Source: Sphingomonas bisphenolicum (GTDB lineage Bacteria > Pseudomonadota > Alphaproteobacteria > Sphingomonadales > Sphingomonadaceae). From it: DNA of 64,000 bases. The notes under the pieces were generated by a model. It was not told the origin of the DNA and searched no databases. It saw only the letters and a list, made by a program, of their open reading frames with translations. Both the position numbers and the translations under genes were made by a program. Shown one piece after another: positions 22,930-59,688 of this stretch. Positions within the stretch are counted from its first letter, which is position 1; every line of letters begins with the position of its first letter. Location: the NCBI RefSeq assembly GCF_024349785.1, contig NZ_AP018817.1:1643501-1707500 (forward strand), in the 5' to 3' direction.

Positions 22930-22973
22930 AGTCTGGACGGCGGCCAAGGGGCGGCAATGGGGTGAAGGACGTA
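22930..22973 (-). promoter_or_regulatory. Regulon promoter of the first ureohydrolase-permease operon
   Basis: Read towards the gene, the element is TACGTCCTTCACCCC (22959-22973), followed by a weak -10-like CAGACT that ends at 22930. The element and the eight bases after it match the copy at 35063-35077 almost exactly. The start codon lies 36 bases after the element, leaving almost no leader. Confidence 0.6.
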
Positions 22974-23029
22974 TGGCCTGCCGCGTTCCGGCCGTTGCGC
23001 TGCGCGGCAAAGCGGGGGAGGGTGGCGCC

Positions 23030-24085
23030 ATGACCCCTATGGATTTCGACGCGCTGGTGGCGCTGCTGGCCCGCATCTTTCTCGCCAATGGCACGTCACC
23101 GGGCGTGGCGGATATCCTTGCCCGCAATTGCGCCGGGGCGGAGCGCGACGGGGCGATGAGCCACGGCCTGTTCCGGATGCCGGGTTATGTCGCGACGTTG
23201 CGCAGCGGATGGGTCGACGGGCGAGCGCAGCCGGTGGTCGAGGATGGCGGCGCGTCCTTCCTGCGCGTCGATGCCGCCAACGGTTTTGCCCAGCCCGCGC
23301 TGGCGGCCGCCACGCCGATGGCCATGGCAAAGGCGCGTGCGACCGGAGCCTGCGTCGTCGCGATCCGGCGATCGCATCATTTCGCGGCGCTCTGGCCCGA
23401 TGTCGAACCCTTTGCGGAGGCGGGGCTGGTTGCGATCGCCATGGTGGACAGCATGGCCGTCGTGGTCCCGCCCGGCGCGAAAAAGCCCGTCTATGGCACC
23501 AATCCGCTCGCCTTCGCCGCGCCGCGCGCGGGCGGGAAGATCGTCGTGTTCGACCAGGCGGTGAGCCTGCTGGCCCATGGCGACGTACAGATCGCCGCGC
23601 GGGAAAGGCACGCCCTGCCCGAAGGTGCAGGCGTCGATGCGGCGGGCCGGCCGACCCGCGATCCCCGCGCGGTGCTGGACGGTGGCGCGCTGCTGCCCTT
23701 TGGCGGGCATAAAGGGGCAGCGATCGCGATGATGATCGAGATCATGGCCGCCGCTCTGACCGGCGGGCTCTATGCGCATGAGGTCGACTGGTCGGGGCAT
23801 CCCGGCGCGCAGACGCCCTGCACCGGGGAGTGTGTGATATTGATCGACCCGGCGCGCGGCGGATCGGCGGCGGGGTTTGCGGCGCGGGTCGAGCAACTGG
23901 TCGAAGCGTTGCGGGCGGCGGGGCAGGAGCGGATGCCCGGCGACCGTCGTTTCGCCGCGCGGGAGAAAGCGTTGCGGGAGGGGGTGGCGGTGAGTGCTGA
24001 GATGCTGGCGCGGCTGGGGGGACTTGTTGCGAACGGAACGTCGCCTTCCCCTCTCCCGACTTCGCCTGACGCGCTGCGCGATTAA
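23030..24085 (+). CDS. Delta1-pyrroline/piperideine-2-carboxylate reductase-like (Ldh_2 family)
   Basis: The 351-residue protein belongs to the malate/L-lactate dehydrogenase-like Ldh_2 family. SHGLFRMPGYVATLRSGW and IRRSHHFAALWPDVEPFAE are the features I associate with the DpkA-type reductases, and KPVYGTNPLAFAAPR and FGGHKGAAIAMMIEI are NADPH-site motifs. DpkA reduces cyclic imino acids to proline or pipecolate. It is divergent from a ureohydrolase. If that enzyme removes urea from 2-oxo-5-guanidinovalerate, the product would cyclise to pyrroline-2-carboxylate and this enzyme would make proline (inference). The ATG at 23030 follows GGGGGAGG. Confidence 0.75.
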   Translation: MTPMDFDALVALLARIFLANGTSPGVADILARNCAGAERDGAMSHGLFRMPGYVATLRSGWVDGRAQPVVEDGGASFLRVDAANGFAQPALAAATPMAMAKARATGACVVAIRRSHHFAALWPDVEPFAEAGLVAIAMVDSMAVVVPPGAKKPVYGTNPLAFAAPRAGGKIVVFDQAVSLLAHGDVQIAARERHALPEGAGVDAAGRPTRDPRAVLDGGALLPFGGHKGAAIAMMIEIMAAALTGGLYAHEVDWSGHPGAQTPCTGECVILIDPARGGSAAGFAARVEQLVEALRAAGQERMPGDRRFAAREKALREGVAVSAEMLARLGGLVANGTSPSPLPTSPDALRD

Positions 24086-24099
24086 GGCTGCATATCCTT

Positions 24100-24116
24100 C
24101 TCTCCCTGGGGGAGAG
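24100..24116. terminator. Possible weak bidirectional terminator
   Basis: CTCTCCC pairs with GGGAGAG over a three-base loop, in the gap between the convergent reductase and response-regulator genes. It has no clear T run, so it may only be a palindromic repeat. Confidence 0.3.
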
Positions 24117-24123
24117 GGGGGGC

Positions 24124-25044
24124 TCAATGCGCGATCACCCGCACCGCGAAGGCGGCCGCCGCGGCCCGCGTTTCCACGCCCAGCTTCTCGAAAATCTGCT
24201 CCAGATGCTTGTTCACGGTGCGCGGGCTGATGACCAATATCTCGCTGATGACCCGGTTGGGCTTGCCGTAGCTGATCCATAGCAACACTTCGGCCTCGCG
24301 CTGGGTCAGGGCAAAATGGCTTTGGAGCCGGCCGATGTCGGCCTGCGGGTCGATATGGTTGAGGCGGATCAATATCTCGTCGCGGCGCGGCCGCCCGACG
24401 ATGATGAGTTCGACCGTATCGCCCTGGCCGCTGTCCGCCTTCGCCGTCGCGCCGGGGGCGAGATCGTCGGCCAGCAGCCGTCCGACGGCGTTGCGCAGCA
24501 GCGCAGGCGGCGCGGCGTCGCCGCGCGACCAGCCCGGCGCCAGCGCCTCCATCAATTTCTCCGCACCCGGCGTGCTCCAGCTCAGCCGCCCGTCGGTTGC
24601 GACCGCGATCAGGTTCCGCCCGGTGGCGTCGAGCGCGAACTGCCCGCCCTGGGTCTGGCGCGCATTGGCCATATGGACGCGCACGCGGGCCAACAGCTCC
24701 TCGACCACGATCGGTTTGCGCACATAATCGACGCCGCCCGCCTCCAGCGCATGGACGACATGCTCGCTTTCGGTGAGGCCGGTCATGAAGATGATCGGAA
24801 TCGGCGCGCCCGCGGGCATCTGCTTGATCGCGCGCGTCGTCTCGAACCCGTCCAGCCCCGGCATCACCGCGTCCATCAGGATAAGGTCGGGGGCGACATG
24901 GTCCAGCAGTTCGATCGCCGCGTCGCCGCTGGTGGCGATCAGCACGGAGATATTGGCCGCCTCCAGCGTGTCGGTCAGGAAGCGCAGCGATTCGGGTGTG
25001 TCGTCCACGACGAGGACGGTATCGGTGTGGGAAGGCGTGGTCAT
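24124..25044 (-). CDS. Response regulator: receiver domain, middle region, LuxR/NarL-type HTH
   Basis: The 306-residue protein starts with a receiver domain with acidic DD at residues 14-15 and the phospho-acceptor D58 in LILMDAVMPG. A middle segment at about residues 125-235 looks like a degenerate PAS-type sensor. The C-terminal LuxR HTH (about 245-300) contains LTQREAEVLLWISYGKPN and SPRTVNKHLEQIFEKLGV. It overlaps the sensor kinase gene by four bases (ATGA) and is the last gene of the urease operon. I propose that it binds the TACGTCA elements in front of the guanidino/amine/urea genes; NarL-type regulators recognise TAC-containing heptamers. A direct test is lacking. Confidence 0.88.
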   Translation of the reverse strand: MTTPSHTDTVLVVDDTPESLRFLTDTLEAANISVLIATSGDAAIELLDHVAPDLILMDAVMPGLDGFETTRAIKQMPAGAPIPIIFMTGLTESEHVVHALEAGGVDYVRKPIVVEELLARVRVHMANARQTQGGQFALDATGRNLIAVATDGRLSWSTPGAEKLMEALAPGWSRGDAAPPALLRNAVGRLLADDLAPGATAKADSGQGDTVELIIVGRPRRDEILIRLNHIDPQADIGRLQSHFALTQREAEVLLWISYGKPNRVISEILVISPRTVNKHLEQIFEKLGVETRAAAAAFAVRVIAH

Positions 25045-28000
25045 CGGGCGGCCCTTATGGTTCTGATCAGCCCCTTGAGGTCGAAACGGTCGAGATGGGC
25101 GAGGAGGCGTCGGGTCAGCGGCGCGGCGTCGGGCACGGTTTCCTCCAGCGTGCGGATGCTGGATTCGATGCCGCGGACATGGCCGATGATCGCCTTCTGC
25201 TCGATATCGGCCAGGATCGGCGCGGCTTCCTGCGGCAGCGGCGGCAGCGCTTCGTCCCCGATGGCGGGGACGGGTGCCGGCAGCGCGTCGCCGGTCCAGC
25301 GGATGCGCAACTGGTCCGCGATCGCATCGAGCAACGCGTCGAGATCGACCGGCTTCATCAGGAACATGTCATGCGCCGCGCGGCCATCGCCACCGCGATG
25401 GAACTCATGCGCATTGGCCGACACCATGACGATGCGGACCGCGCCGCCCAGCGTCTCGCGCAGCGCCCGGCACACGTCCCAACCCGATTCGCCGGGCATG
25501 GAGATGTCGAGCAGGACGATGTCGGGCTGTTCGCGTGCGGCGATCTCCATGCCGGTGCGTCCGTTCAGCGCCTCGAACACGATGAAGTCGAGCGGCTCCA
25601 GCAGCCCGCGCAGCACCGCCACCTGGACGGCGTCATCGTCGATCAGCAGCACTTTGCGCCGGTCGCCTTCATAGCCTCTGATCGTTTCGACCGGCTGGCT
25701 GTCGGCCACGCCCGCGACATGGCCCAGCATCAGCCGCACCGTGAATTGCGTGCCCTGCTCCGCGGTGCTGACCACGGACAGGTCGCCGCCCAATATCTGC
25801 ACCAGCGCCTGGGTGATGGCGAGGCCGAGGCCGATGCCCTTCTGCTTTTGCGCGTCGGGATTGGAGCCGCGCTCGAACGGATCGAAGATGCGTTTGAGGT
25901 CATCGGCGGCGATGCCGATGCCGGTGTCGACGATGTCGAACGTCGCCATCTGGCTGCGATACTGGACGCGGAAGGTGACGGCGCCGGACCGGGTGAACTT
26001 GATCGCGTTGGACAGCAGGTTGATGAGGATCTGGCGCAGCCGCTTCTGGTCGGTCCGCACGAAATCGGGCAGCTTCTCGGGCCGTTCGTAGAGGAAGTCG
26101 ATCCCCTTGGCCTGCGCCTGCGGCCGGAACATATTGGCGATCTGGTCGACGAAGGGAGACAGGCGCACCGTTTCGCTGCTGATGCGCAGTACGCCGCTTT
26201 CGACCTGGCTGATGTCCATCAGCCCTTCGACCAGATTGGTCAGATGCTCGGCGCTGCGGCGAATGACCTTGGCCGCTTCGATCGGGGCGATCTCGTGACC
26301 GCGCTCCATAAGCTGGGCATAGCCGTAGATGCTGTTGAGCGGGGATCGGATTTCATGGCTGACGCTGACCAGATAGCGGCTCTTGGCGGCGTTGGCGGCT
26401 TCGGCCGCCTCCTTGGCGCGTTGCAGTTCCGCGCCGGTCACGTCATGGGCGATCACCTCTTCCATCAGTTTCTGCACATGATGCTCGCTTTCCTGCATCG
26501 CCGACCGGCGGCTCTGGTGTGCCAGCACGATCATCCAGGCGATGACCCCGCCGAACAGCGAAAAAAGCAGGAACAGGCCCAGCATCAGGCTGGATGTCTG
26601 CGCGGCGATGGATGGCGCACCCCGCGCCACTTGCCAGCCGATGCCGCCCAGCACCGCGCCGTTCGCCAGGGTGATGATGCTCATGACGGCGATGAAATGG
26701 CCGACGGGCGTATGCACATGTTTGGCGATGGCGCGGGGCAGCAGCCGTTCCAGCCAGCGCGCGGCCTGCTGCGTCGCCCGGCTGTCGGTCTTGCACCGGT
26801 CGTGGCAGCGCGCCTCCAGCGTGCAGCAGAGCGAGCAGATCGGCGCAGCATACATCGGGCAATGCGCCATGTCGGCATGCTGGAACGCGTTTTCGCAGAT
26901 GATGCAGGTCTTTATATCGCTGCCTGCGGGCCAGTGGGACCGGCGGGCGATATAATAGCGGCCATGGGTGACAAGCGCGATGATCGGGGCGGTGGTGAAA
27001 GCGACCGCCATGCCGATCACCGGGGCGAAGGCGCGGGCTATGTCGCCCATCAGGCCGAAATGGGCGAGAGCGGATACCGCGATGGACAGCAGCATCGCGC
27101 CAATGCCCACCGGATTGATGTCGAACAGATGCGCCCGCTTGAACTCGATTCCCGCAGGCGACAGGCGCAGCGGCTTGGAGATCATCAGGTCCGCGGCCAG
27201 CGCCCCGATCCAGCCCGCCGCGACCGTGGCGTAGAGGATCAATATCGCCTCGATCGCGTCGAAAATGCCGACTTCCATCAGCAGCAAAGCGAGCAGCACG
27301 TTGAAGATCAGCCATACGACGCGGCCGGGATGGCTGTGCGTCAGGCGGGCGAAGAAATTCGACCAGGCGATCGATCCGGCATAGGCGTTGGTGACGTTGA
27401 TCTTCAATTGGCAGATGATGACGAACAGGCCGGTCAGGATCAGCGACAGGCCGGCATGGCCCGACATGGCGGTATAGATCGCCTGGAACATCGCGGTCGG
27501 GCTGGACGCCTCGCTCTGCAAGGCGGCGCTCTTGACCAGGAAATGCGCCAGCCATGACCCGAGCAGCAGCTTCATGCCGCCGATCAGGGTCCATCCCGGT
27601 CCGCCCGCCAGCATCGCCGCCCACCATTTCCCCCGGCCGATCGTCGCCTTGTCCGGCAGGAAGCGCAGATAGTCCGCCTGCTCCCCGATTTGCGGCAGAA
27701 GGGAGAGGAGGGTGGACAGCGCGAAGCCGAAATAGAGCAGGCTGACGCTGCCGTCCCTGGCGCCCAGTTGCCCGGTGAAATGGCTCCATTCGGCCAGCGC
27801 GGCCGGGCCGGACCAGAGGATATAGGCGATCGGCGCGACTTGTAGCGTGATCCAGACCCATTGGGTCGCGTTCTGGAACCGGGTGATGGCGCTCATGCCG
27901 TAGAGTGCGATCGGGATGACCACCAGCGCGCTCGCCAGATAGGCGAGGCTCATCGGCATCCCGGTCATCGCCCGCAGCGCGACCGCCATGATCGTCGCTT

Positions 28001-28396
28001 CGACCGAAAAGAGCAGGAAGGTGAAGCTGGCGTAGATCAGCGAGGTGAGGGTGGACCCCAAATAGCCAAAGCCGGCGCCGCGCGTCAGCAGGTCGATGTC
28101 CAGACCGTGCTTGGCGGCGTGATAGGCGATCGGCAGGCCGATGACGAACATCAAAGCGACCGCGGCGGCGATCGCGGCGACGCTGTTGGCGAAGCCGTAG
28201 GTCAGGGTGATCGACGCGCCGATCGCTTCGCAGGCGAGGAAGGCGGTCGCGCCGATCGCGGTGCCCGCCACCTGTCCCGCCGTCCAGCGCCGTGCGCTGT
28301 CGGCGGTGTAGCGCAGGGCATAATCCTCCAATGTCTGGCTCGCGACCCATTTATTGTAGAGCCGCTTTTCGCGCAGGACATAGGCGGCGCGGTCCA

Positions 28397-28397
<1 letters not shown>
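25041..28397 (-). CDS. Hybrid histidine kinase fused to an NCS1-type permease domain
   Basis: This 1118-residue protein has three parts. Residues 1 to about 480 are an NCS1 purine/cytosine-permease-like domain of about 12 spans, with ATAFLACEAIGASITLTYGFANS in its first part. A soluble segment with a cysteine cluster (C498 and C501 in CIIC, then further Cys to about 534) is followed by two more spans. The kinase has the H-box at H681 (SHEIRSPLNSIYGY), NLLSNAIKFT, and GIGLGLA. A C-terminal receiver carries D964 in VLLDISMPG. The permease part probably senses or imports a small nitrogenous solute, as proposed for transporter-kinase fusions such as CbrA. It overlaps ureG by one base and the regulator by four. 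Confidence 0.9.
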
Positions 28398-29034
<637 letters not shown>

Positions 29035-29038
<4 letters not shown>

Positions 29039-29715
29039 GAGCGGAAGAGCCTTGTGTAGAGGGTTTCATGGGCGAGGCTGGCGAGTTCAAGGTCGGGCGC
29101 GGCGGTGCCGAGATCGTCGAGCGACGTAATCATCGCTTTGGCGGCGATGGCCGGAATGGCGTGGGAGAGGGCGGCCAGCGCCAACTGCCCGTCGGTCTGG
29201 CCGAGCGGCACGAGGCGCACCCCGGCCGATACCAGATTGGCGGCGGTGGCATGAAGCCAGCCGTGCAGCGCGGGTTCCAGCGGGATGGCATGGGCGGCGC
29301 AGGCCAGCGCCATCACGACCGTATGCGCCATCGGACGCCCTTCCCAGCGCGCCGCAAAGGCGTCGAGCGTCGGATGGGGCCAGGCCTTGCGCGTGACCGA
29401 CAGGAAGGAGCCACCCTGCTGTCGGCTTTCCAGCGCCGTTTCGCTGCTGCCCCGGAACGCGCCCGCCAGTTCGGCGATGGCATCGAACGCTGCGGCGTCG
29501 CCTGCCGTTTCATAAGCATGGACGAACAGCACCGCATCCACCCAGCCGCCGCCGCGCGCCAGCACCGCCTCGACATAGGCGGCGACATCGGTCGCGGTGC
29601 GGACGCGGCCGTCCTCGACCGCGGTTTCCAGGCCATGGCTATAGGTGAAGCTGCCCACCGGATAGGCAGGCGAGGTCCAGGCCAGAAGGCGGTGGAGGGC
29701 GGCGTCAGCCAGCAT
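29035..29715 (-). CDS. ureF: Urease accessory protein UreF
   Basis: The 226-residue helical protein shows the UreF marks [16 protein letters not shown] at about residues 14-29 and [20 protein letters not shown] near residue 115. UreF bridges UreD and UreG in the nickel-loading complex. The internal ATG at 29715 ([11 protein letters not shown]) is chosen; the longer frame would only read backwards into the histidine codons of ureE and gives a Met/Ile/Thr-rich stretch. It overlaps the 3' end of ureE by 11 bases. Confidence 0.93.
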
Positions 29716-30202
29716 GGTGGTGGTGATCGTGGCCATGGTCATGATCGTGCGCATGACCATGATGATGGCCGCCACCCGAATAGGCGCCGCCTTCGGGGGT
29801 GAAGGGCGCCTCGATCTGCGTCACCGTCGCGCCCAGCCCTTCGAGCATGGCGTTGATGACATGGTCGTCGCGCAGGCGGATGGCGTGGGGATGGAGTTCG
29901 GCGGGCAGGTGCCGGTTGCCGATATGCCAGGCGAGCCGCATCATCGTCGACGCGCTGTCGGCGGTGACCTCGACCAGCGCTTCGGGGGCGGCAAGAATTT
30001 CAACCAGCCGCCCGTCCGACAGTTGCAGCGCGTCGCCATGCCCCAGCACCGTGGCGCGGGCCAGGTCGAGCAGGAACATGGTGCCATGGTCGGCGGTGTA
30101 GACCCAGCGCCGACGGTGCCGCGCGTCATGATCCAGCATGATATGGTCGGCGGCTGGACCCGACCAGTGGCCGTGGGGGATGACGTCATGGGCGGTCAGC
30201 AT
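29705..30202 (-). CDS. ureE: Urease accessory nickel metallochaperone UreE
   Basis: The 165-residue protein has the UreE fold, with WHIGNRHLPAELHPHAIRLRDDHV carrying the conserved nickel-site His, and GLGATV. Its end is very His-rich: about 13 His and 4 Asp in the last 25 residues, a nickel store as in some UreE proteins. It passes nickel to UreG. It lies 13 bases downstream of ureC. Confidence 0.93.
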   Translation of the reverse strand: MLTAHDVIPHGHWSGPAADHIMLDHDARHRRRWVYTADHGTMFLLDLARATVLGHGDALQLSDGRLVEILAAPEALVEVTADSASTMMRLAWHIGNRHLPAELHPHAIRLRDDHVINAMLEGLGATVTQIEAPFTPEGGAYSGGGHHHGHAHDHDHGHDHHHHAG

Positions 30203-30215
30203 GATCGGGCCTTCA

Positions 30216-31928
<1,713 letters not shown>

Positions 31929-31929
31929 G

Positions 31930-32235
31930 TCAGAGCTTCCCCATCACATCGCCGCGGAAGCCGATGACGATCCGGTCGCCGGCATAGGGGATGAGCTGCA
32001 CGTCGCGCGTCTGGCCAGGCTCGAAGCGGACGGCGGTGCCCGACGGTATGTCGAGCCGATAGCCGCGCGCCGCTGCCCGATCGAAGACCAGCGCCGGGTT
32101 GGTTTCGGCGAAATGATAATGGCTGCCGACCTGGATCGGCCGGTCGCCGCTATTGGCGATAGTGAGGGTGACGGGGACACGCCTCTCGTTGAGCAATATG
32201 TCGCCGCTGGCGGGGATGATCTCGCCGGGGATCAC
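31930..32235 (-). CDS. ureB: Urease subunit beta
   Basis: The 101-residue protein has the typical start MIPGEI and the ureB marks [15 protein letters not shown] and [14 protein letters not shown]. It is a separate subunit here, not fused to ureA as in Helicobacter. It overlaps ureA by four bases and ends one base before ureC. Confidence 0.95.
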
Positions 32236-32534: not shown

Positions 32535-32538
32535 GGCC

Positions 32539-49640: not shown

Positions 49641-49688
49641 TTCGACATGCGCCAAGGCAAAGGCCGGGCGCCAAGGGGGACATATAGG

Positions 49689-51416: not shown

Positions 51417-52861
51417 CCGTCATGCAGGCACCCGCCTACCGCCGGGCCGAATATCATGGGTTCGAAGCGGGTGGCGGCCACTTCATCTATCTGGTGAGCG
51501 CGGGCGCGATCTTCGAGATCGACGCGGATGTCCGCACGGTGCTGACCCGTCTCGACGGGCAGGAACTGACCCATGCCGCGCTGGTCCGCGAACTGGCGAG
51601 CGATGGCCGCGATACGGCCGAAGCCGAAGCGCTGGTCCGCGAACTGCGCGTCGCCCGACTGATCCAGCTTGGCGCCGCGGCCCCGGTCATGCCGCAGGCG
51701 CCACCGGCCGATTTTCCGCTTCAGGCGCTGGTGCTGAACGTCACCAACCAGTGCAACCTCGCCTGCACCTATTGTTACGAATTCGGCGCGGACAAGATCG
51801 CGACGCCCGCGGGCAAGCCCAAATATATGACGCTGGACACGGCCAGGGCCTCGGTCGACCTGCTGATCGCCGAAGCCGTGGGCCGCAAGGCGGTGCATAT
51901 CACCTTCTTCGGCGGCGAAACGCTGATGAACTTCAAGCTGCTGCGCGACGTGGTGGACTATGCGAACGCGGCGACGGCGGCGGCGGGGAAGGCGATCACC
52001 TACAGCCTCACCACCAACGCCACGCTGCTGACGCCGGAGATCGTGACATTCCTCTCCGATAATCGCATCGGCGTCACCGTGTCGATGGACGGCCCGCCCG
52101 AGATGCAGGACAAGCATCGCGTCTACAAAAATGGCAAGGGCAGCTATGCGGTGATCGAACCGCGCCTGCGCACGCTGATCGCGCACCACAAGACCCGCGC
52201 CATCACCGCGCGCGTGACGCTGACCGAAGGCGTCACCGACGTCGTGCGCATCTTCCGTCATCTGAAGGACGATCTGGGCTTCCACGAAGTCGGCTTCGCG
52301 CCGGTGACGACCGGGGAGGAGCGGGCCTATTCGCTGGATGACAATGGCATGGACAGCGTGCTGGCGCAGTTCAGCCTGCTCGCCGACGAATGGCTGGAAT
52401 ATGCCCTGCGCGGAGAATCCCACGGCTTCACCAATGTCAGCGAGACGATCAGCGAGCTGATTTCCGGGGTCAACAAGTCGCATCCCTGTGGCGCGGGTCT
52501 GGGTCTGATGGGGGTCAGTCCGTCGGGCGACCTGTCCCCCTGCCATCGCTTCACCGACGCCGACACGCACACGATGGGCCATGTCTCCAGTGGTATCGAC
52601 CGGGCCAAGCAGGGCGAGTTCCTGAAAAAGGGCCATGTCGAGGCGAAATATGACTGCCAGAGCTGCTGGGCACGGCCGCTCTGCGCGGGCGGATGCCATC
52701 ATGAGGCGTTTGTGCGCTATGGCGACACCGGCCACGCCAACCTCCATTATTGCGACTGGATACGGCAATGGACCGACACCTGCCTGCGCATCTACGGCGT
52801 GCTGGCGGTGCAGAATCCCGGCTTCCTCGAACGCTTCGCTGAACGAAAGGGCCTGTCATGA
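51413..52861 (+). CDS. qhpD: Radical SAM/SPASM enzyme that cross-links the gamma subunit
   Basis: The 482-residue protein has the radical SAM motif C114-xxx-C118-xx-C121 (CNLACTYC) and a Cys-rich C-terminal SPASM domain (CGAG, SPCH, CQSCW, LCAGGC and YCDW). The N-terminal 90 residues look like a peptide-recognition domain. QhpD forms the Cys-to-Asp/Glu thioether bonds in the gamma subunit in the cytoplasm before export. It overlaps both qhpA and qhpC by four bases. Confidence 0.94.
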   Translation: MTVMQAPAYRRAEYHGFEAGGGHFIYLVSAGAIFEIDADVRTVLTRLDGQELTHAALVRELASDGRDTAEAEALVRELRVARLIQLGAAAPVMPQAPPADFPLQALVLNVTNQCNLACTYCYEFGADKIATPAGKPKYMTLDTARASVDLLIAEAVGRKAVHITFFGGETLMNFKLLRDVVDYANAATAAAGKAITYSLTTNATLLTPEIVTFLSDNRIGVTVSMDGPPEMQDKHRVYKNGKGSYAVIEPRLRTLIAHHKTRAITARVTLTEGVTDVVRIFRHLKDDLGFHEVGFAPVTTGEERAYSLDDNGMDSVLAQFSLLADEWLEYALRGESHGFTNVSETISELISGVNKSHPCGAGLGLMGVSPSGDLSPCHRFTDADTHTMGHVSSGIDRAKQGEFLKKGHVEAKYDCQSCWARPLCAGGCHHEAFVRYGDTGHANLHYCDWIRQWTDTCLRIYGVLAVQNPGFLERFAERKGLS

Positions 52862-53220
52862 AGCATCTTCGTGCCATCAATAAAAAGGCGCGCGCGATCG
52901 GCGAAGCGGTGGCGCAGGTCGAGGCGGCGTCCGCCGGAACGCCTACCGATATGGATGAGGATGTCGTCGCCCTCCAGCAGCAGCCGCGGCCCCACGTGCC
53001 GATGGGCTGCACCCTGTCTTTTTCGCCCGGTTGGGAAGTCGATGCGGGCGGCGGCACGGCGGGACTGTGCCAGCCGGTCGAGCGCGACATATACGACTGC
53101 TACGTCACCTGCTTCTGGCCCGTCCAGGTGCCCGACCATGTGAATTATTCGCCCGACTGGGCCAGCAACTGCGCCACCGCCACCAAGGACTGGCGCAGTC
53201 TCGATCTCGTTTTTCCATGA
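52858..53220 (+). CDS. qhpC: Quinohemoprotein amine dehydrogenase gamma subunit precursor (CTQ-bearing)
   Basis: The 120-residue precursor has a polar leader of about 40-45 residues and a mature part in which every modified residue of the Paracoccus gamma subunit aligns with identical spacing. C51-E60, C71-D77 and C85-D93 are the thioether pairs, and C81 with W87 would form cysteine tryptophylquinone. In Paracoccus numbering these are C7-E16, C27-D33, C41-D49, C37 and W43. It is the catalytic subunit that oxidises primary amines. The leader would be removed by QhpE, and the folded peptide exported by QhpF. Confidence 0.95.
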   Translation: MKHLRAINKKARAIGEAVAQVEAASAGTPTDMDEDVVALQQQPRPHVPMGCTLSFSPGWEVDAGGGTAGLCQPVERDIYDCYVTCFWPVQVPDHVNYSPDWASNCATATKDWRSLDLVFP

Positions 53221-54320
53221 GGCGCGCCATGTCGATCTATCGCACCATCGTCGCAGCGGGGTTTGCCGCACTGGCCGCGCTCCCGGCGTCCGCCTCCACC
53301 CTCTTCATGGGGTCCTATCCCGACCAGCTGCTGATCTTCGACGAAGGCAAGGCGGCGGTGACGGGCAAGATCAAGCTCGACACCGGCCTGCCGACATCGA
53401 TGCTGCTGTCGGACGACGGCAAGCGCATCTATGTCACCACCATCACCACCAGCGGGATCGAGGTGATCGACACCGCCACGCGCAAGGTGATCAACAAGTT
53501 CAGCCTGAACGACGGCGTCACCCGCTACCGCTTCTGGGGCGGCGCGGCGGACCCGACTGGCCGCTATTTCTATACGGTCATCAGCCGCTTCGACAAGGAA
53601 GTGGACCGCTACAAGGTTAGCAAGCCGATGTACGGCGTGATCGACCTGAAACTGCAGAAGGTCGTCCGCACGGCTGAAATCGACAAGGAAGACGAGAAGG
53701 CCGGCGGCGGATACCGCGCCGCCTATAAAGTGTCGCAGGACGGCAAATATCTTTATGTCTTCGGCGACAAGGTGCTGATCCTGAACCTCGCCGACCTCAA
53801 GGTGATCGACCGCATCGATCTGGCCAAGCCCGAAGGGACGGGGCTTGAGAATGTCGGTTTCGGCGGCGCGATCGACACGATCCGCACGCCCGGCCAGTTC
53901 GTGTCGCTGTTCAACGCGGCGGACCCCTATATCCATAACAAGATGTTCGGCCTCGCCCGCTTCGACCTCAACAGCCGCCAGTTCGACTTCACCCCGATCG
54001 GCCCCGCGCCGGACAATATGGCCGGCCTGCAAATGACGCCCGACGGCAGCCAGGCCTATACCGTCGTGACCAACGGGAAGCTGGGCAACAAGCGCTGCGA
54101 ATTCTGGCATATGGACATGAAGGCCAATACAGTCGTGGACAAGGCGGAGTTTCCCTGCCGCTCCCGCTTCCGCTTCGGCATGTCGATGGATGGCACCAAG
54201 CTCTACATCTACGGCGCCAGCTATGATGTCGAAGTCTATGATGCCAAGACGCTGAAGCTCGAAGCAACCTGGGATCTGGGGAATGACACCACCGGCGCAG
54301 GCATGGTCGCGGTGGAATGA
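53217..54320 (+). CDS. qhpB: Quinohemoprotein amine dehydrogenase beta subunit
   Basis: The 367-residue protein has a Sec signal (about residues 1-26, cleaved near ASA) and WD/YVTN-like beta-propeller repeats such as DDGKRIYVTTITTSGIEVID and QDGKYLYVFGDKVLILN. The beta propeller packs against the gamma subunit near the active site. The ATG at 53217 overlaps the qhpC stop; a second ATG at 53229 has GAGG upstream, and both keep the signal peptide. It follows qhpC as in Paracoccus. Confidence 0.9.
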   Translation: MRRAMSIYRTIVAAGFAALAALPASASTLFMGSYPDQLLIFDEGKAAVTGKIKLDTGLPTSMLLSDDGKRIYVTTITTSGIEVIDTATRKVINKFSLNDGVTRYRFWGGAADPTGRYFYTVISRFDKEVDRYKVSKPMYGVIDLKLQKVVRTAEIDKEDEKAGGGYRAAYKVSQDGKYLYVFGDKVLILNLADLKVIDRIDLAKPEGTGLENVGFGGAIDTIRTPGQFVSLFNAADPYIHNKMFGLARFDLNSRQFDFTPIGPAPDNMAGLQMTPDGSQAYTVVTNGKLGNKRCEFWHMDMKANTVVDKAEFPCRSRFRFGMSMDGTKLYIYGASYDVEVYDAKTLKLEATWDLGNDTTGAGMVAVE

Positions 54321-54436
54321 AGACCTTCGGGCCTATTGGCAAATTCCTGGTTCATCTCGACTTTGGTCGAAAAAGAAGCGTTACTTTTTGTCGGCATATG
54401 GACTTGATCCGCAACGAACGGCAGGGCGGCAGATGA
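54317..54436 (+). CDS. Possible 39-residue peptide coupled to qhpB and qhpG
   Basis: This open frame starts at an ATG overlapping the qhpB TGA and ends with a TGA overlapping the qhpG ATG. It therefore fills exactly the gap between them with ATGA junctions at both ends. The peptide is basic (MKTFGPIGKFLVHLDFGRK and onward), with no recognised motif and a weak ribosome site. It may simply be a spacer that happens to be open, or a device that couples translation of qhpG to qhpB. Confidence 0.3.
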   Translation: MKTFGPIGKFLVHLDFGRKRSVTFCRHMDLIRNERQGGR

Positions 54437-55416
54437 AGAGCATCGCCATCCGGGGCAGCGGCATCGCCGCCACAGGATGCGCGCATATATTGGCTGGCGC
54501 GGGCTTTCGGGTCGCAATCGAAGAACGCCGCCGCCTGTCCGTGCCGACGATCATGCTGAGCGATCCGGCCCTGCGCCTGATCCGCGGCGTGTTCGATCGG
54601 CCGGACCTGTTTGCCGACCAACCGCGCGTGACGCGACGGCTGGTCGCTTGGGGCGGAGCAGCGGTGATGGTGCCCCATGGCGCGGCGCTGGCATCGGAGG
54701 ATCAGGTCCAGACGGCGCTGCCATCCATCCCGTCATCCCAAGCCGGCCCTGCCGATTTCACCATCCATGCCGCGCCACTGGGGAATATGCGCATTTTCGG
54801 CGAACGCAACGCCGTTGCGGCCAGGGTGAAATTGCGCGATCCCACCTGTGTCGAAGAGGCGCGGATCGAGGCCGTGGCGGCGGGCTGGCTCTATCTGGTG
54901 CCGGCGGAACCGGGCTTTGGCTGGCTGCTGGGCGTGGGCGATTCGGTCGACAGGCTATTGGGTCAGAGTGCGCTGATCGCGCCGGTCGTGGACGCCCTGG
55001 GAGCGATTTCCATGCCCTTTCCCGCTGCGCCGCGCCTGCAATGGCCGCTTCATGGCGATGACTGGCTGGCCTGCGGCACGGCAGCTCTGAGCTTCGACCC
55101 GATCTGCGGCGACGGCACGGCGCAGTCGGTGCGGGAAGCGATATTGGCGGCAGCGGTCGTCACGGCGATCGCCGAAGGTGGGGATCGCGCCGCGCTGCTT
55201 ACCCATTATCGATCGATGCTGATCGCGGCGATGCGTCGGCATCTGCTGCTCTGCGCCCAATTTTACGGCAATGGCGGGCAGGGTGACTGGTGGCGCGCGC
55301 AGCATGAGGCGCTGATGGCGGGGCATCATATGTGCACCGGCCTGCTGGCCCGGCTGCCCGAGCCGCGCTTCCTGCTCGACGGCTTCCGGCTGGTGTCCCG
55401 GCCGGCCGCGGCATGA
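54433..55416 (+). CDS. qhpG: FAD-dependent monooxygenase-like protein QhpG
   Basis: The 327-residue protein starts with a flavin-binding Rossmann motif, IRGSGIAATGCAHILAGAGFRVAIEE. It shows FDPICGDGTAQSVREAI, the FAD-contacting GD motif of tryptophan-halogenase/monooxygenase folds. In Paracoccus QhpG hydroxylates the gamma-subunit tryptophan on the way to CTQ. It lies upstream of qhpF here, whereas Paracoccus has it last. It overlaps qhpF by four bases. Confidence 0.85.
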   Translation: MKSIAIRGSGIAATGCAHILAGAGFRVAIEERRRLSVPTIMLSDPALRLIRGVFDRPDLFADQPRVTRRLVAWGGAAVMVPHGAALASEDQVQTALPSIPSSQAGPADFTIHAAPLGNMRIFGERNAVAARVKLRDPTCVEEARIEAVAAGWLYLVPAEPGFGWLLGVGDSVDRLLGQSALIAPVVDALGAISMPFPAAPRLQWPLHGDDWLACGTAALSFDPICGDGTAQSVREAILAAAVVTAIAEGGDRAALLTHYRSMLIAAMRRHLLLCAQFYGNGGQGDWWRAQHEALMAGHHMCTGLLARLPEPRFLLDGFRLVSRPAAA

Positions 55417-57116
55417 GCGCTCCGACCCCGCCTCCGGTTGCCGATTGGGGCACCTACAAGCGGCTGATGCCCTTCCTGCGTCCCTATCGCGGCGCGTTGC
55501 TGGTCGTACTGGCGATCAGCCTCGTCTCGACCATGCTGGGCCTAGCGCAGCCCTATCTCTCCAAGCTGATGATCGATCAGGCGCTGCTCAAGCGCGACAT
55601 GACCGCGCTGGTGGACATCGCGGCGATCATGATCGCCGTCACCATCGCGGGCTTCGCGGTCAACATCCTCGCCAGCTATCGCTATGTCGCGCTGTCGGCG
55701 GCGATGCTCTACGATATTCGCGCGGCGCTGCTGCGCCATCTCCAGACGCTGTCGCCGCGCTTCTATGGCAGCTTCCGCCTGGGCGATCTCGTGTCGCGCA
55801 TGAACAGCGACGTCAGCGATGTGCAGCGTATCGCGTCGGACACATTGCTGTCGGTGGTCAGCAACCTGCTCTTCTTCGTCGGCTGCGTCGCGATGATGCT
55901 GTGGCTCGACTGGCGGCTCTTCCTGGTGAGCGTCGTGCTGGTCCCGGCCAGCCTGGCGACCTTCAGCTACTATCAGCGCCGCCTGACCGCGCTGACCCGC
56001 GACATGCGGGAACGGGGGGCGGATCTGGGCAGCCTGCTGGTCGATACGGTGATGGGGATGCGCGTCGTCGCCTCGCTCCGCGCGGGCGAGCATGAGGTGG
56101 GCCGATTCAAGACCAAGAACGACGCCTTCGTCGCGTCGATGCTGCGGATGCAGGTCGCGTCCTTCATGACCGGCGCGCTGCCCGGCACGCTGATGACGGC
56201 GGCGACATCGGCGGTGATCCTCTATGGTGGCTGGCGGATCATTCATGACGGCATGAGCATCGGCACACTCGTCGCCTTCATGACCTATCATATGCGACTG
56301 CTCTCGCCGATCCAGACGCTGATGGGGCTGACGTCCGGGCTGGCGTCGGCGCGGGTGTCGCTGGGGCGCATCTTCGAACTGTTCGATACCAAGCCTGAAG
56401 TCGTAGAGCGCAACGAGGCGCTGCCCATGGCGCGGGCAGGTGAGATGCGCTTCGAACAGGTCGCGATGCGCTATGATCGCGATGCGGTGTTGCGCGATGT
56501 CGACCTGACGATCCCGGCGGGGAGCCTTTGCGCCATCCTTGGCCCCAGTGGCGTGGGCAAATCGACCATGGCCGACCTGATGGTGCGCTATCTCGATCCG
56601 GACAGCGGGCGGATCACGATCGATGGCCGCGACCTGCGCGACTTTCGGCTCGACGATCTGCGGCGGGAAATCCTCCTCGTCGATCAGGCGCCCTATCTGT
56701 TCAACGACACGATCGCGGCCAATATCGGCTTCGCCATGGCCCATGTGTCGCAGGAGGCGATCGCGGCAGCGGGCCATGCCGCCGGGCTGGACGCCTTCGT
56801 CGCGACATTGCCGGAAGGCTATGCAACGCGGGCGGGCGAACGCGGCATGGCGCTGTCGGCCGGTGAGCGGCAACGGGTCGTGCTCGCCCGCGCGCTGCTG
56901 CGCCGACCCAGCATCCTGATTCTGGACGAGCCGACATCGGCGCTGGACGGGGACACCGAGCAGCTTGTGGCGGGACGCCTGCGCGATGCGCTGCCCCATG
57001 CCACGATCATCGTCATCACCCATAAGCCCGCACTGGCGCGGATGGCCGACGCCATCATTACGCTGGAGCAGGGGCGGGCGCTGCTGACGGCGCGCGCAGA
57101 GCCTGTCGATGCCTGA
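55413..57116 (+). CDS. qhpF: ABC exporter of the modified gamma subunit, QhpF
   Basis: The 567-residue half-transporter has six spans in its first 300 residues and an ATPase domain with Walker A GPSGVGKST, signature LSAGERQRVVLARAL, Walker B ILILDEPTSAL and the H-loop TH. Its position with qhpD, qhpG and qhpE identifies it as the exporter that moves the cross-linked gamma subunit to the periplasm. It overlaps qhpE by eight bases. Confidence 0.9.
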   Translation: MSAPTPPPVADWGTYKRLMPFLRPYRGALLVVLAISLVSTMLGLAQPYLSKLMIDQALLKRDMTALVDIAAIMIAVTIAGFAVNILASYRYVALSAAMLYDIRAALLRHLQTLSPRFYGSFRLGDLVSRMNSDVSDVQRIASDTLLSVVSNLLFFVGCVAMMLWLDWRLFLVSVVLVPASLATFSYYQRRLTALTRDMRERGADLGSLLVDTVMGMRVVASLRAGEHEVGRFKTKNDAFVASMLRMQVASFMTGALPGTLMTAATSAVILYGGWRIIHDGMSIGTLVAFMTYHMRLLSPIQTLMGLTSGLASARVSLGRIFELFDTKPEVVERNEALPMARAGEMRFEQVAMRYDRDAVLRDVDLTIPAGSLCAILGPSGVGKSTMADLMVRYLDPDSGRITIDGRDLRDFRLDDLRREILLVDQAPYLFNDTIAANIGFAMAHVSQEAIAAAGHAAGLDAFVATLPEGYATRAGERGMALSAGERQRVVLARALLRRPSILILDEPTSALDGDTEQLVAGRLRDALPHATIIVITHKPALARMADAIITLEQGRALLTARAEPVDA

Positions 57117-57825
57117 TCCGATCCGCCCTGATCCCATCCGCATCGCCGTCATCGACAGCGGTGTCCATCCCGATCACCCGCATATCGACGCAGCCCGGCT
57201 GTTGCCCGGCGTTGCGATAGCGGGCGACGGCGCGATCAGCGAGTGCGACACCATCGACGCTCTTGGCCATGGCACTGCGGTCACCGCCGCCATCCAGGGG
57301 CAGTCGTCCGACGCGCTATGCCTGCCGATCCAGGTATTCCACAATGCGTTGCGCACCACCGCGCGCGCCTTGGTGGCCGCGATCGATCGGGCCGTGGCGG
57401 CGGAGGTCGACATTATCAACCTCAGCCTCGGTACGGTGAACCCGGCGCATCGCGACCTGTTCGCGGCGGTCGCCGATAGGGCGCTGGCGGCGGGCGTGCT
57501 GATCGTGGCCGCGCGAGAGACGGAAGGGACGCCTTGCTATCCCGGCGGCCTGGCTCAAGTGCTGGGCGTATCGCTGGACTGGGACTGCCCGCGCGAAGAC
57601 TATGCCATACGGGACGGAATCGTCTTCGCCTCCGGCCATCCCCGGCCGATCCCCGGCGTGCCGCCAAGGCGCAACCTCCATGGCGTCTCCTTCGCTGTCG
57701 CCAATATGAGCGGCATCGTGGCGCGGGGCGGGCGATTGGCGATCGCCCGCCATCTCGATCAGGCGACGCCGAACGCCGCGATCCGCTCGACCATCCAGAA
57801 GCAGCCGATCGCGCCCACGGCATAG
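57109..57825 (+). CDS. qhpE: Subtilisin-like leader peptidase QhpE
   Basis: The 238-residue subtilase core has the catalytic triad D16 (VIDSGVHPDH), H54 (GHGTAV) and S194 (HGVSFAVANMSG). It has no signal peptide, in line with QhpE acting in the cytoplasm, where it removes the leader of the modified gamma subunit. It completes the qhp set. Its last 67 bases overlap the 3' end of the convergent HupE gene. Confidence 0.88.
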   Translation: MPDPIRPDPIRIAVIDSGVHPDHPHIDAARLLPGVAIAGDGAISECDTIDALGHGTAVTAAIQGQSSDALCLPIQVFHNALRTTARALVAAIDRAVAAEVDIINLSLGTVNPAHRDLFAAVADRALAAGVLIVAARETEGTPCYPGGLAQVLGVSLDWDCPREDYAIRDGIVFASGHPRPIPGVPPRRNLHGVSFAVANMSGIVARGGRLAIARHLDQATPNAAIRSTIQKQPIAPTA

Positions 57826-58757
57826 AGCGCCGCGACCCGGACCGGCGTCGCCAGCGACAGCGCGCGCAGCCCCGCCAGCGTCGCCAGGATCGCGCCGACG
57901 AAGACCAACTGTCCCGCCTCCACGCCGATGTTGAAGAAGACCAGCGCCGGCAGCTTCTCACCCGCCTGCACGCCCAGTTCGCCCAGCGCCGTCGCGAAGC
58001 CCAGACCATGGAGCAGGCCGAACAATGATACGACGATCGCCTGCCGCCGGAAGGCGAACGCCCGTTCCCCCTTGCCGATCAGCAGCGCCTCACGCGCCAT
58101 GAAGGCGATGGACAGGGCGATGGCGGCTTCCACCGGCGGCACCGGCGCACGCACCAGTTCGAAGAAGGCGATGGCGAGCGAGATGGAATGGCCCGCGGTA
58201 AAGGCGCTCACCAGCCAGAGCAGGTCGCGCCCGCGCGCCAGCAACGCCAGGCACAGGACGAAGGCGAGGTGATCCCAGCCCAGCCAGATATGCCAGACGC
58301 CCTGCGCCAGAAATTCCGGGGCGATCTGGGTGATCGGCCGCGCCGTTGCAGCGGTTTCGCCGACCGGCACGGAAATGCCGTGCGCGTCGCCGGTCAGGCT
58401 GCGATCGACCTGGGCGCCCATGACATTGGTGACGAAGCGGCCGCCATCGGCCTTCCACGGCGTCTGGATCATGTCAGTGGCGGCAAAGGGCCGGTCGCAG
58501 GCGAATTCAAAGGCATATTGCGCTCGCCCGCCGCCGGTCTGGCGGCTCATGCCGGTCTGGCGGCAGCCGTCGGGCAGGATGATGGGCGCAGGCTGGCCTA
58601 CTGCCTCCGGCACGGCGGCGGTGAATTCGTACGTGTTCGGGTCTTCGCCGCGCGTCAGGGCGAAGTCGGCGGACAGGAAGATATCGGCCATCGCCGTACC
58701 TGGCGCCAGCGCCGCCAGCGCAAGCATCAGCAGGGCGAACAGCTTATTCTTCGACAT
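57759..58757 (-). CDS. HupE/UreJ-like membrane protein (second copy)
   Basis: The 332-residue paralogue of the protein at 39651-40655 has the same layout: signal peptide, a periplasmic beta-rich domain (LTRGEDPNTYEFTAAVPEAV, two Cys), then about six spans with HIWLGWDHLAFVL, TAGHSISLAIAFFE and GLLHGLGFA. A nickel-related role is possible from the family. It overlaps the paired PPIase gene by 14 bases and converges with qhpE. Confidence 0.8.
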   Translation of the reverse strand: MSKNKLFALLMLALAALAPGTAMADIFLSADFALTRGEDPNTYEFTAAVPEAVGQPAPIILPDGCRQTGMSRQTGGGRAQYAFEFACDRPFAATDMIQTPWKADGGRFVTNVMGAQVDRSLTGDAHGISVPVGETAATARPITQIAPEFLAQGVWHIWLGWDHLAFVLCLALLARGRDLLWLVSAFTAGHSISLAIAFFELVRAPVPPVEAAIALSIAFMAREALLIGKGERAFAFRRQAIVVSLFGLLHGLGFATALGELGVQAGEKLPALVFFNIGVEAGQLVFVGAILATLAGLRALSLATPVRVAALYAVGAIGCFWMVERIAAFGVA

Positions 58758-59607
58758 CGAACTTCTCCTTCAGGCCCGCCAGCGCTTGGCTGATGGCGGC
58801 ATTGCTGTGGGTGATCATATAATCCTGCCGCACCTGATCCTTGATCGCGGGGAAGGGGATCATGGCGGATGCGATGCGCTCGCTCTTCTTCACGAAATGC
58901 CAGCCGCGCGGGGATGGGATCGGCCCGATCCAGCGGCCCTCCGGCGCGGTCTTGAGCGTGTCGACGAAGGGTTGGCCGAAAATGCCCCGCACCATGGAAT
59001 CGCCGTAGCGGGGGAAGTCGCGGCCCAGCCAGAAATCCTCGCCCCCGATCGTCTCGCCCGCGTTGAGCCGGGCCAGCAGGACGCCCGCGTCGGCGGGCTT
59101 TTGCTGGCGGAAAATCTGGGTAAAACTGGTGCGCGGTTCGGCGCGGTAGAGGTTCAGATGGGTCGCATAATGATCGACCAGTTCCTCCTCGCTCGGTTCG
59201 GGCGGGGCGCCCGCGATCAGGTAGCGGACCTTGTCGACCAGCCGTTTGCGCGTCTCGCCGTCGGTCAGGTGCATGTTACGGTCGATCGCCTCGCGGAACA
59301 GCAGCTCCTCGGCCAGATATTCGGCCTTCAGCCGGGCGCGATCCTGCGCCGTCGCCTTGCGCCCGGTCAGCGTCGCCAGGTCCGCGACCTGCGCCTGCTC
59401 GATCTCTGGCGTAAAGATGACGGGCGGCTTTTCGAAGTGCTGGACGACCTGATAACCGCCGAACAGCGCAACGCCGGCGAGTAGAAAGGCGAAGAGCGGA
59501 TCGCGCGCTGCGCGGCTGGCTACGGGCATCGGATTGCGCCACGGTCGCGGCGATGCCGCCACCTGCCGCGCCGCCGAAAGATCCATGGATTCCGTCCCGT
59601 TCGCCAT
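58744..59607 (-). CDS. Membrane-anchored parvulin-like peptidyl-prolyl isomerase (second copy)
   Basis: The 287-residue protein has one span at about residues 35-52 and a periplasmic domain parallel to the first copy: LTGRKATAQDRARLKAEYLAEELL, AGAPPEPSEEELVDHYATHLNLYRAEPR and GRWIGPIPSPRGWHFV. The ATG at 59607 is chosen because the longer frame would run through the regulon promoter. It heads the PPIase-HupE pair, divergent from urtA. Confidence 0.78.
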   Translation of the reverse strand: MANGTESMDLSAARQVAASPRPWRNPMPVASRAARDPLFAFLLAGVALFGGYQVVQHFEKPPVIFTPEIEQAQVADLATLTGRKATAQDRARLKAEYLAEELLFREAIDRNMHLTDGETRKRLVDKVRYLIAGAPPEPSEEELVDHYATHLNLYRAEPRTSFTQIFRQQKPADAGVLLARLNAGETIGGEDFWLGRDFPRYGDSMVRGIFGQPFVDTLKTAPEGRWIGPIPSPRGWHFVKKSERIASAMIPFPAIKDQVRQDYMITHSNAAISQALAGLKEKFDVEE

Positions 59608-59614
59608 GCCCGCA

Positions 59615-59660
59615 ATATTAGGGGGAAGCGGTGCGCCACAGCCTACGTCAAATGACGCAT
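59615..59660 (-). promoter_or_regulatory. Regulon promoter of the second PPIase-HupE unit
   Basis: On the minus strand the dyad at 59644-59660 reads ATGCGTCATTTGACGTA, and a -10-like TAATAT follows at 59615-59620. The arrangement is the same as at the first PPIase gene. Confidence 0.6.
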
Positions 59661-59688
59661 ACGGGCGTTTGCCGCCTTTCCATAGCCT
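59644..59688 (+). promoter_or_regulatory. Regulon promoter of the urt operon
   Basis: The same dyad read on the plus strand, TACGTCAAATGACGCAT, is followed by TAGCCT at 59683-59688. That is the same hexamer at the same distance as in the TonB-receptor promoter. One element thus seems to serve two divergent promoters. Confidence 0.65.

Follow-up and report, generated by a model that had tools for sequence, protein, structure and literature searches.

Response regulators of the NarL/FixJ (LuxR/GerE) class are built from a receiver and a GerE DNA-binding domain; as class II activators they bind at or near the −35 region, and NarL sites have a 7-2-7 geometry. In CbrA-type sensor kinases a transporter-like membrane domain, of the SLC5/SSS type in CbrA, is fused to a histidine kinase. 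The known urease regulators are UreR (AraC type), NikR and NtrC. Urea is among the chief sources of nitrogen in soil and water, and to our knowledge its sensing in most Pseudomonadota is poorly described outside the urease regulators of a few species. Here we describe a DNA element that stands before ten transcription units in a 64 kb stretch of the 5.2 Mb genome of Sphingomonas bisphenolicum (contig NZ_AP018817.1, positions 1,643,501 to 1,707,500). The whole stretch is called the window, and coordinates are positions within it. We conclude that the element is probably bound by the LuxR-type response regulator whose gene lies at 24124-25044. In concert with a predicted urea-sensing kinase (25041-28397), this regulator would activate ten promoters of the sigma-70 type from near −42. 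The place of the element before ten units and its recurrence near the same kinase–regulator pair in dozens of Pseudomonadota make it a likely docking site of that system.

The regulator shares with NarL/FixJ class II activators the receiver and GerE domain, a 7-2-7 inverted repeat as its proposed site and a site position at or near the −35 region. It differs in the sequence of the site (TACGTCA-N2-TGACGTA), in its 306 residues with a stretch between the two domains and in its predicted urea, guanidino and amine targets. The kinase resembles the CbrA type in joining a transporter-like membrane domain to a histidine kinase, but its predicted fold is nearest to NCS1 proteins (CodB, Mhp1) and it has an invariant Cys-rich linker and a C-terminal receiver. 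UreR, NikR and NtrC likewise control urease, but they are not LuxR-type response regulators, unlike the product of 24124-25044, which has a receiver and a GerE domain only.

Passages of two papers on the Pseudomonas ped cluster describe AgmR/ErbR (PedR1) with ErcS'/NahK (PedS1), a LuxR-type regulator beside a hybrid kinase, which activates several quinoprotein alcohol oxidation operons (PMC12997753, PMC13390443). The pairing is the same as here; the alcohol oxidation targets are different. The main text of PMC13390443 does not contain the words 'motif' or 'binding site', and that of PMC12997753 does not contain 'urea'. In Ectopseudomonas guguanensis G3 the urtABCDE operon is located with a two-component LuxR-family regulator, and the legend to Fig. 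6 of that paper names a hybrid kinase (PMC13296017). The same combination of urtABCDE, hybrid kinase and LuxR-type regulator occurs here, but the passages of PMC13296017 name neither a site nor its targets, and describe no sensor fold or mechanism. The ureohydrolase family also includes Ni-dependent hydrolases of metformin and guanidine, which are products of adjacent ureohydrolase genes with HupE/UreJ-type genes near by (PMC11399263, PMC11271267). The window also has adjacent ureohydrolase genes, one of three being degenerate by motif, and the substrates of its five enzymes are putative. Among the titles and abstract openings listed from open-licence papers, none describes this operator or regulon. 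Each component is of a known kind, whether two-component system, NarL-type site or transporter-like sensor kinase; their combination, its range and the Sphingobium expansion appear to be new.

A common element at ten promoters

The element, which the original prediction had given as 15 bp, is 16 bp long and forms an inverted repeat spaced 7-2-7; in eight of the ten promoters it is followed by a T. Read towards the genes, it is spelt TACGTCA-N2-TGMCSCA in Sphingomonads and TACGTCA-N2-TGACGYA elsewhere. It was found at all nine positions where it had been predicted, and the GACGTA/TACGTC half, said to be intact throughout, is indeed kept at each of them. Two copies come close to a perfect palindrome (TGCGTCA-TT-TGACGTA): the one at 38754 and the one at 59644, which lies between two divergent units.

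Counts in the window and the genome, together with the ranking in the profile search below, led us to reject a chance origin of the motif. With up to three mismatches, GGGGCATTTGACGTA has eight matches in the window (shuffles: mean 1.18, maximum 4). These eight include six of the nine sites; those at 22959, 35063 and 49597 differ from GGGGCATTTGACGTA at more than three bases. The copy that the original prediction had called the best has ten genome matches at up to two mismatches, seven of them inside the window, against seven genome-wide for a reversed-pattern control. All five exact genome matches of TACGTCAWWTGMCSC fall inside the window, and the reversed control has none in this genome. A loose consensus at two mismatches gave mostly background (68 matches versus 42 in the control).

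A profile of element, spacer and −10 box, R1, was built from 33 promoters of other genera. These were taken from 45 promoters with a TA −10 box, leaving out six of the window and six of close relatives (L036, L115 and L116; L and G numbers label loci and genomes). The source elements lie near response-regulator homologues in the best 80 regulator loci listed. On the window alone, R1 ranked all ten promoters first, from 22.3 to 9.0 bits, in keeping with the single architecture originally proposed for them. The best unrelated stretch reached 7.2 bits. The original statement that no housekeeping gene of the window has the element holds in this sense only, that no other stretch exceeded that score; gene annotation covered about 21.9-61 kb. 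On the genome, where 150 of 2507 first-look candidates were scored and weaker sites may thus be missed, nine matches had E ≤ 10. The top six, and seven in total, are inside the window. The two off-window matches (C2:550996 and C1:1021168) both lie inside mechanically called open reading frames and were not counted as regulon members.

The sites at 22959 and 35063 are alike beyond the element, GGCAATGGGGTGAA being common to both, and the two may have arisen by copying of one from the other. This would suit a recently spread promoter cassette, or a chance likeness of ten sites with no common regulator. We regard such an origin as highly improbable, since the flanks of the other sites differ, the element is concentrated in one part of the genome and recurs in other orders, and a profile built from other genera largely contradicts it.

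The spacing to the −10 box was analysed in 114 sites near regulator loci (those close to piece ends dropped), of which 84 were kept after removal of near-identical downstream sequences. In 44 of the 84, a TA starts at offset 38-41 from the initial T of TACGTC, compared with a mean of 12.0 and a maximum of 26 in 2000 shuffles; without the window's own sites the count is 38 of 77. The commonest −10 words are TAGCCT (9), which the original prediction had named twice, and TAGCGT (6). With the −10 box at this offset, the element spans about −50 to −35. None of the 45 promoters with such a −10 box has a TTGACA with 5-6 matches at 16-18 bp spacing. The mean best match is 2.76 of 6 versus 2.32 in shuffles, and the promoters of ureohydrolases 1 and 2 and of the ureohydrolase trio have 4 of 6. 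These data agree with the original placement of the element near −42, instead of a −35 box. The −10 words proposed there are all at their places, but two of them are poor or doubtful: CAGACT of ureohydrolase 1, and TAACCA of ureD, which is changed in several orthologues. By sequence, the promoters have the features of class II sigma-70 promoters (a site near −42, a spaced −10 box, no good −35 box), weakly so at ureD and ureohydrolase 1.

A site at about −50 to −35 overlaps the region bound by RNA polymerase, and could suit a regulator that represses until a signal relieves it. We consider repression improbable. The lack of a good −35 hexamer (0/45 with 5-6 matches) is what activator-dependent promoters would be expected to show, and where the regulator is missing the qhp site described below is eroded, with TAGGCT kept in only two of 14 genomes.

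The response regulator as the probable binder

The gene at 24124-25044 (−; signs in brackets give the strand) encodes a response regulator of 306 residues with a receiver (Pfam Response_reg, 94.8 bits) and a LuxR/GerE DNA-binding domain (GerE, 59.1 bits). There are no other Pfam matches, and the stretch ∼123-245 between the domains lies outside both. We propose it as the protein that binds the element on the basis of co-occurrence, Pfam domains and the relation between its recognition helix and the site.

In a set of 298 family genomes (homologue cut-off E ≤ 1e-60, seven candidates scored per genome) a regulator homologue was found in 31. Exact sites occur in 11 genomes, nine of them regulator-positive (p = 2.1e-8; own genome excluded, 1.7e-7), the reversed pattern in six, none of them regulator-positive. 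Sixteen of the 19 exact sites are within 36 kb of the regulator gene. Among the best 80 regulator loci listed, 46 contain a total of 58 element matches, against one match of the reversed pattern. The choice of this gene as the binder in the original prediction is supported by both co-occurrence and linkage in other genomes.

The window regulator has the recognition helix TVNKHLE. In a comparison of 109 loci, three of them without a helix reading, which contain 96 sites versus six reversed-pattern matches, the residue at the N position varies with the presence of a site: 53 of 76 loci with N have one, seven of 20 with Q, none of nine with T and not the single locus with D (N versus the rest, p = 2.2e-5). 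Helix and site thus seem to change together, although kinship among the loci weakens this p-value. Regulators with TVQKHLERIY (L062, L053, L064, L066) are found near a variant site, TACGTCAWWTGCCGC. In L062 a cytochrome b561-like gene is next downstream and a glycogen phosphorylase-type gene lies further on. This sub-branch may have another target set.

The quinohemoprotein amine dehydrogenase operon allows the site to be compared with and without the regulator at one promoter. qhpA was found in 37 of 94 genomes of the genus. We scored 32 of these 37 promoters, the window's own included (G731, G723, G237, G742 and G729 were left out), and searched 35 of the 36 other qhpA genomes for the regulator, leaving out G729, a fragment. 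The site is intact, with all nine fixed bases, in 15 of 18 regulator-positive genomes versus one of 14 regulator-negative ones (p = 3.9e-5). With the own genome excluded, it is intact in 14 of 17 regulator-positive genomes (p = 3.9e-5). In one further regulator-positive genome, G739, it has a single change.

The partner kinase, its recurrence and the putative signal

The gene at 25041-28397 (−) encodes a hybrid histidine kinase with a predicted NCS1 permease-like sensor, a Cys-rich linker, HisKA and HATPase domains and a receiver. This description draws on Pfam, on a structural model compared by Foldseek and on the names of some homologues. The protein has 12 hydrophobic segments, ten of them within residues 1-490. 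This part has no Pfam match (no NCS1 at E ≤ 1) and no sequence match to solved structures in the PDB; among 8000 candidates scored, some homologues are named purine-cytosine permease-like. A model of residues 1-640 has a mean pLDDT of 71.7. Its best Foldseek matches are CodB and Mhp1, which fill the first five fold ranks (CodB, 7qoa: TM 0.74 of target, 17% identity, E 5e-8), the sialic-acid symporter and DUR3 following at rank 7 and lower. The sensor model thus has the fold of NCS1 proteins and not the SLC5/SSS-type domain of the CbrA class. In the linker between the permease-like domain and the kinase core (residues 498-536, window 26790-26906), the window kinase and 19 homologues share eight invariant cysteines, the first being C498 and the last C535; metal or redox sensing is a possible role. 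Short kinases stand beside the same regulator type in L093, L105 and other Sphingomonas urea-carboxylase loci; that of L105 (474 aa) has no membrane domain and no sensor domain in Pfam.

The sensor domain was found in 52 of 398 sampled genomes of the phylum. We fetched 20 distant kinase loci from these 52 genomes, picked to spread over families and not at random. All 20 have a urtD-like gene and a regulator homologue, and 18 also have urtA; the eight UrtA proteins tested all pass TIGR03407. The palindrome TACGTCA-N2-TGACGYA occurs in 18 of the 398 genomes, of which 13 are kinase-positive (p = 4.0e-9; own excluded, 2.2e-8). This pattern was chosen after viewing the 20 kinase loci, and the count includes their genomes; the family and qhp tests are free of this. 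The reversed pattern occurs in four of 398 genomes, one of them kinase-positive. Of 19 palindromes outside the own genome, 12 are on the kinase contig, ten of them at a distance of 125-422 bp from the kinase match. Of the remaining seven, one lies on a contig other than that of the kinase and the rest come from kinase-negative genomes. The intergenic region between urtA and the kinase gene was tested with 300 shuffles each in 18 of the 20 loci (the pieces of L146 and L154 do not include urtA), and in 11 of the 18 the palindrome beats nearly all shuffles (p ≤ 0.003). The Sphingomonad spelling had also been tried as a phylum-wide mark; it had no link to the kinase and was replaced by the palindrome of the distant kinase loci.

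A number of observations weigh against this view of element, regulator and kinase. Since the genomes share ancestry, the co-occurrence p-values given above overstate independence. There is no TA at offset 38-41 in 40 of the 84 sites. No exact site was found in 22 of the 31 regulator-positive family genomes, and 23 of the 76 TVNKHLE loci have no site in their pieces. G680 and G705, with regulators 71% and 61% identical, have no qhp site. In the phylum, 39 of the 52 kinase-positive genomes are without the palindrome, and between urtA and the kinase gene it is unconvincing in six of 18 loci and borderline in L151. Two of the six, L153 and L156, have TACGCA...GCGTA followed by TAGCCT, and their regulators carry T in the recognition helix. 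The Sphingomonad spelling TACGTCAAAYGMCSC occurs in nine non-own phylum genomes; the kinase is present in just one of these, G542, where it is on a different contig from the site. The reversed pattern of this spelling occurs in 33 genomes. No urease, urea carboxylase/allophanate hydrolase or urtA gene lies within the flanks of 33 of the 80 regulator loci. Confidence in the kinase sensor model is moderate; its NCS1 fold is predicted and the ligand assignment putative.

The genome also contains off-island matches. The original prediction had suggested a genome-wide profile search; its strongest matches (18.9-22.3 bits) are all in this island, but weaker ones exist elsewhere, one of them intergenic. 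Rescoring of eleven pieces, chosen for near-matches or adjacency to the window, gave off-island stretches of 14.2, 12.6 and 10.0 bits, scores that reach or exceed those of the sites of ureohydrolases 1 (9.0) and 2 (9.4) or of qhp (10.4). The three weakest members therefore rest on position and orthologues, not on score. The ureohydrolase 1 site has the orthologue TACGTCCTTCGCCCC in L032, and that of ureohydrolase 2 has TACGTCAATCGCCCC in L036 and L115, the L115 copy with TAGCCT. The intergenic stretch of 10.0 bits, C2:378678 (L125:6679-6694), is a near-palindrome, TACGTCATTTGACATA, with no TA at 38-41. It sits between an MFS transporter gene and a TonB receptor gene, with an enolase-type enzyme encoded in the neighbourhood, and is possibly a chance match or an eleventh, off-island member.

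Other exceptions would fit binding of the element by a different protein, either a further LuxR-type one or a regulator of general nitrogen control, with the kinase–regulator pair a mere passenger in the same islands. The qhp site persists in G753, where both regulator and kinase are absent; a site but no regulator at 1e-60 was found in G048 and G291; and five of the 18 palindrome genomes have no kinase match. We think this unlikely. The linkage recurs across the phylum with varied neighbours, in ten genomes at 125-422 bp from the kinase match, and none of the ten loci whose recognition helix carries T or D in place of N has a site. The element also matches no nitrogen-regulator consensus that we know of. 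In G753 (L160) the best match to the third trio ureohydrolase gene, beside qhp, is shortened; this genome possibly reflects a recent loss in a decaying island.

Binding of the element by the product of 24124-25044 thus remains our preferred reading, and urea is the most likely signal because of the company that the pair keeps: urt, urease and urea carboxylase genes. In Sphingomonads the neighbour is often urease or urea carboxylase, and in all 20 distant loci it is a urea transporter (urtA, urtD). Among the best 80 regulator loci listed, urease genes are found in 17, urea carboxylase and/or allophanate hydrolase in 27 and urtA alone in three. An association with urea uptake or breakdown is present in 47 of the 80 loci, 33 showing none within their flanks, and, by the urtD-like gene, in 20 of 20 distant kinase loci. 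Urease and urtA genes point away from each other in L112, L113 and L114, and the space between them contains sites. Much of the window plan recurs in G057 (L115, L116), with sites before ureD, ureohydrolase 2, a mauD-like gene and the TonB receptor gene, and a further one between PPIase-HupE and urtA.

The same regulator and site could also answer to a signal other than urea, be it nitrogen starvation, a polyamine, guanidine or another guanidino compound. The sites stand before genes for five ureohydrolases of the arginase family and for an amine dehydrogenase, and NCS1 proteins are nucleobase transporters. Many of the 27 loci with urea carboxylase or allophanate hydrolase genes have UAAP2-type proteins, and some members of the urea-carboxylase-type gene set may, according to a passage of PMC13296017, serve guanidine. 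We regard such a signal as a serious but lesser possibility. The partner in the distant loci is the urea transporter (a urtD-like gene in 20/20), with UrtA passing a urea-specific model in 8/8, and an Rfam scan of the window at gathering scores found no guanidine riboswitch, its sole match being 5_ureB_sRNA.

We therefore retain urea in a tentative scheme. Urea or a close analogue would be perceived at the NCS1-like sensor domain, the less certain step, and would lead to phosphotransfer from the kinase to the regulator. The phosphorylated regulator would then bind the element in place of a good −35 box and give class II activation, near-palindromic copies facing two genes at once. The site of the urease operon would also drive expression of kinase and regulator: there is no gap between the UreG-like gene and that of the kinase, so that kinase and regulator are probably co-transcribed. 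Since the pair comes last in an operon that has a site of its own, the system should show positive feedback. In this strain the switch would have grown beyond urea uptake and urease to take in five ureohydrolases, enzymes that would make urea, together with the Mo-hydroxylase unit, the TonB receptor, both PPIase-HupE units and the quinohemoprotein amine dehydrogenase.

With less assurance than for the binder itself, we think it slightly more likely than not that this is an ancient, phylum-wide form of urea signalling in Pseudomonadota. In it a nucleobase-transporter fold would serve as the sensor of a hybrid kinase that works with a LuxR-type regulator and a palindromic operator, TACGTCA-N2-TGACGTA, at urea-transporter genes. 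Sphingobium would have rewired it into a ten-promoter switch for guanidino and amine scavenging, in which the ureohydrolases make the inducer that feeds both urease and the switch. An operator, a likely regulator and a transporter-like sensor make urea sensing testable in many genomes.

The transcription units and their sites

The operator can also be used as a finder. It links the TonB receptor, the Mo-hydroxylase, the PPIase-HupE pairs, the TPR-sulfotransferase and the ureohydrolases to a likely use of urea, guanidino or amine nitrogen. The mechanical starts of ureD, ureohydrolase 2, the first trio gene and the PPIase of unit 2 are beside or upstream of the element, so that the true starts should be further downstream.

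Ureohydrolase 1 (21879-22922, −) belongs to the arginase family (Pfam Arginase, 286.8 bits; agmatinase model TIGR01230, 186.1 versus a cut-off of 174.3). Its site, TACGTCCTTCACCCCA (22958-22973, −), is weak, at 9.0 bits with R1, and the proposed −10 box, from a reading of the promoter, is at 22930-22935 (−). Among the urease genes (28397-33483, −), ureD, ureC, ureF and a UreG-like gene were identified from open reading frames and Pfam. Their site, TACGTCATATGCCCCA (33423-33438, −), is at the top of the genome search with 22.3 bits; the proposed −10 box of ureD, judged by promoter comparison, is at 33398-33403 (−). The Rfam match to 5_ureB_sRNA (88.2 bits, 31489-31773, +) is antisense inside the urease alpha gene, ureC, and may merely mirror coding conservation.

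Ureohydrolase 2 (33502-35061, −; arginase family by Pfam) has a mechanical start too far upstream. Its site, TACGTCGTTCACCCCA (35062-35077, −), is weak in this strain (9.4 bits), and the −10 box is TAGCTT (35034-35039, −). The opposite strand carries the site TACGTCAAACGCCCTA (35249-35264, +; 19.8 bits) and the −10 box TAGCGC (35288-35293, +) of a unit that starts with the gene called MauD in the original prediction and runs into Mo-hydroxylase genes. The MauD label had no Pfam match for either 35158-35907 or 35305-35907; the genes behind it encode a 2Fe-2S subunit and a molybdopterin-binding subunit (35923-38618, +).

PPIase-HupE unit 1 has the near-palindromic site TGCGTCATTTGACGTA (38753-38768, +), which scores 11.6 bits on this strand and 19.1 bits on the other, and the −10 box TAAGCT (38794-38799, +). 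It encodes a PPIase, a HupE/UreJ-type protein and a TPR-sulfotransferase (38839-42217, +). The last of these (40148-42217; also L090, L092-L110, L116 and L118) accompanies the regulator, the TonB receptor and, in some loci, the PPIase-HupE genes, and has no obvious role in urea use.

The TonB-dependent receptor gene (42472-45036, −) and the ureohydrolase trio (45010-49557, +) each have a copy of TACGTCAAATGCCCCA, at 45072-45087 (−; 21.1 bits) and 45120-45135 (+; 19.0 bits), with −10 boxes TAGCCT (45043-45048, −) and TACCCA (45160-45165, +). The first mechanical open reading frame of the trio begins upstream of its element. In the second ureohydrolase of the trio (46338-48068, +) a motif scan found GGDHT and FDAHAD but not SxDxDxxDP, whereas the other four ureohydrolases of the window have all three motifs; it may be a non-catalytic partner subunit. 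By their mechanical open reading frames, four ureohydrolases (33502-35061 and 45010-49557) have an N-terminal stretch of ∼180-285 residues ahead of the arginase domain.

The qhp operon has the site TACGTCATTTGGGCAA (49597-49612, +), which scores 10.4 bits and was assigned with the help of the cross-genome comparison, and the −10 box TAGGCT (49635-49640, +). The quinohemoprotein amine dehydrogenase region (49647-57825, +) encodes alpha and gamma subunits, a radical SAM protein, a QhpG-like protein, an ABC transporter and a subtilase; the QhpG-like protein scores far below the cut-off of the QhpG model.

The last site is the palindrome between urtA and PPIase-HupE unit 2 (59644-59659, both strands), read as TACGTCAAATGACGCA towards urtA (21.6 bits, +) and scoring 11.6 bits on the other strand. 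Unit 2, a HupE/UreJ-type protein and a PPIase (57759-59718, −), has the −10 box TAATAT (59615-59620, −) and a mechanical start upstream of the element. On the other side, the −10 box TAGCCT (59683-59688, +) directly precedes urtA (59689-60960, +), whose product, the binding protein of a urea ABC transporter, scores 528 bits with TIGR03407 against a cut-off of 492.75.

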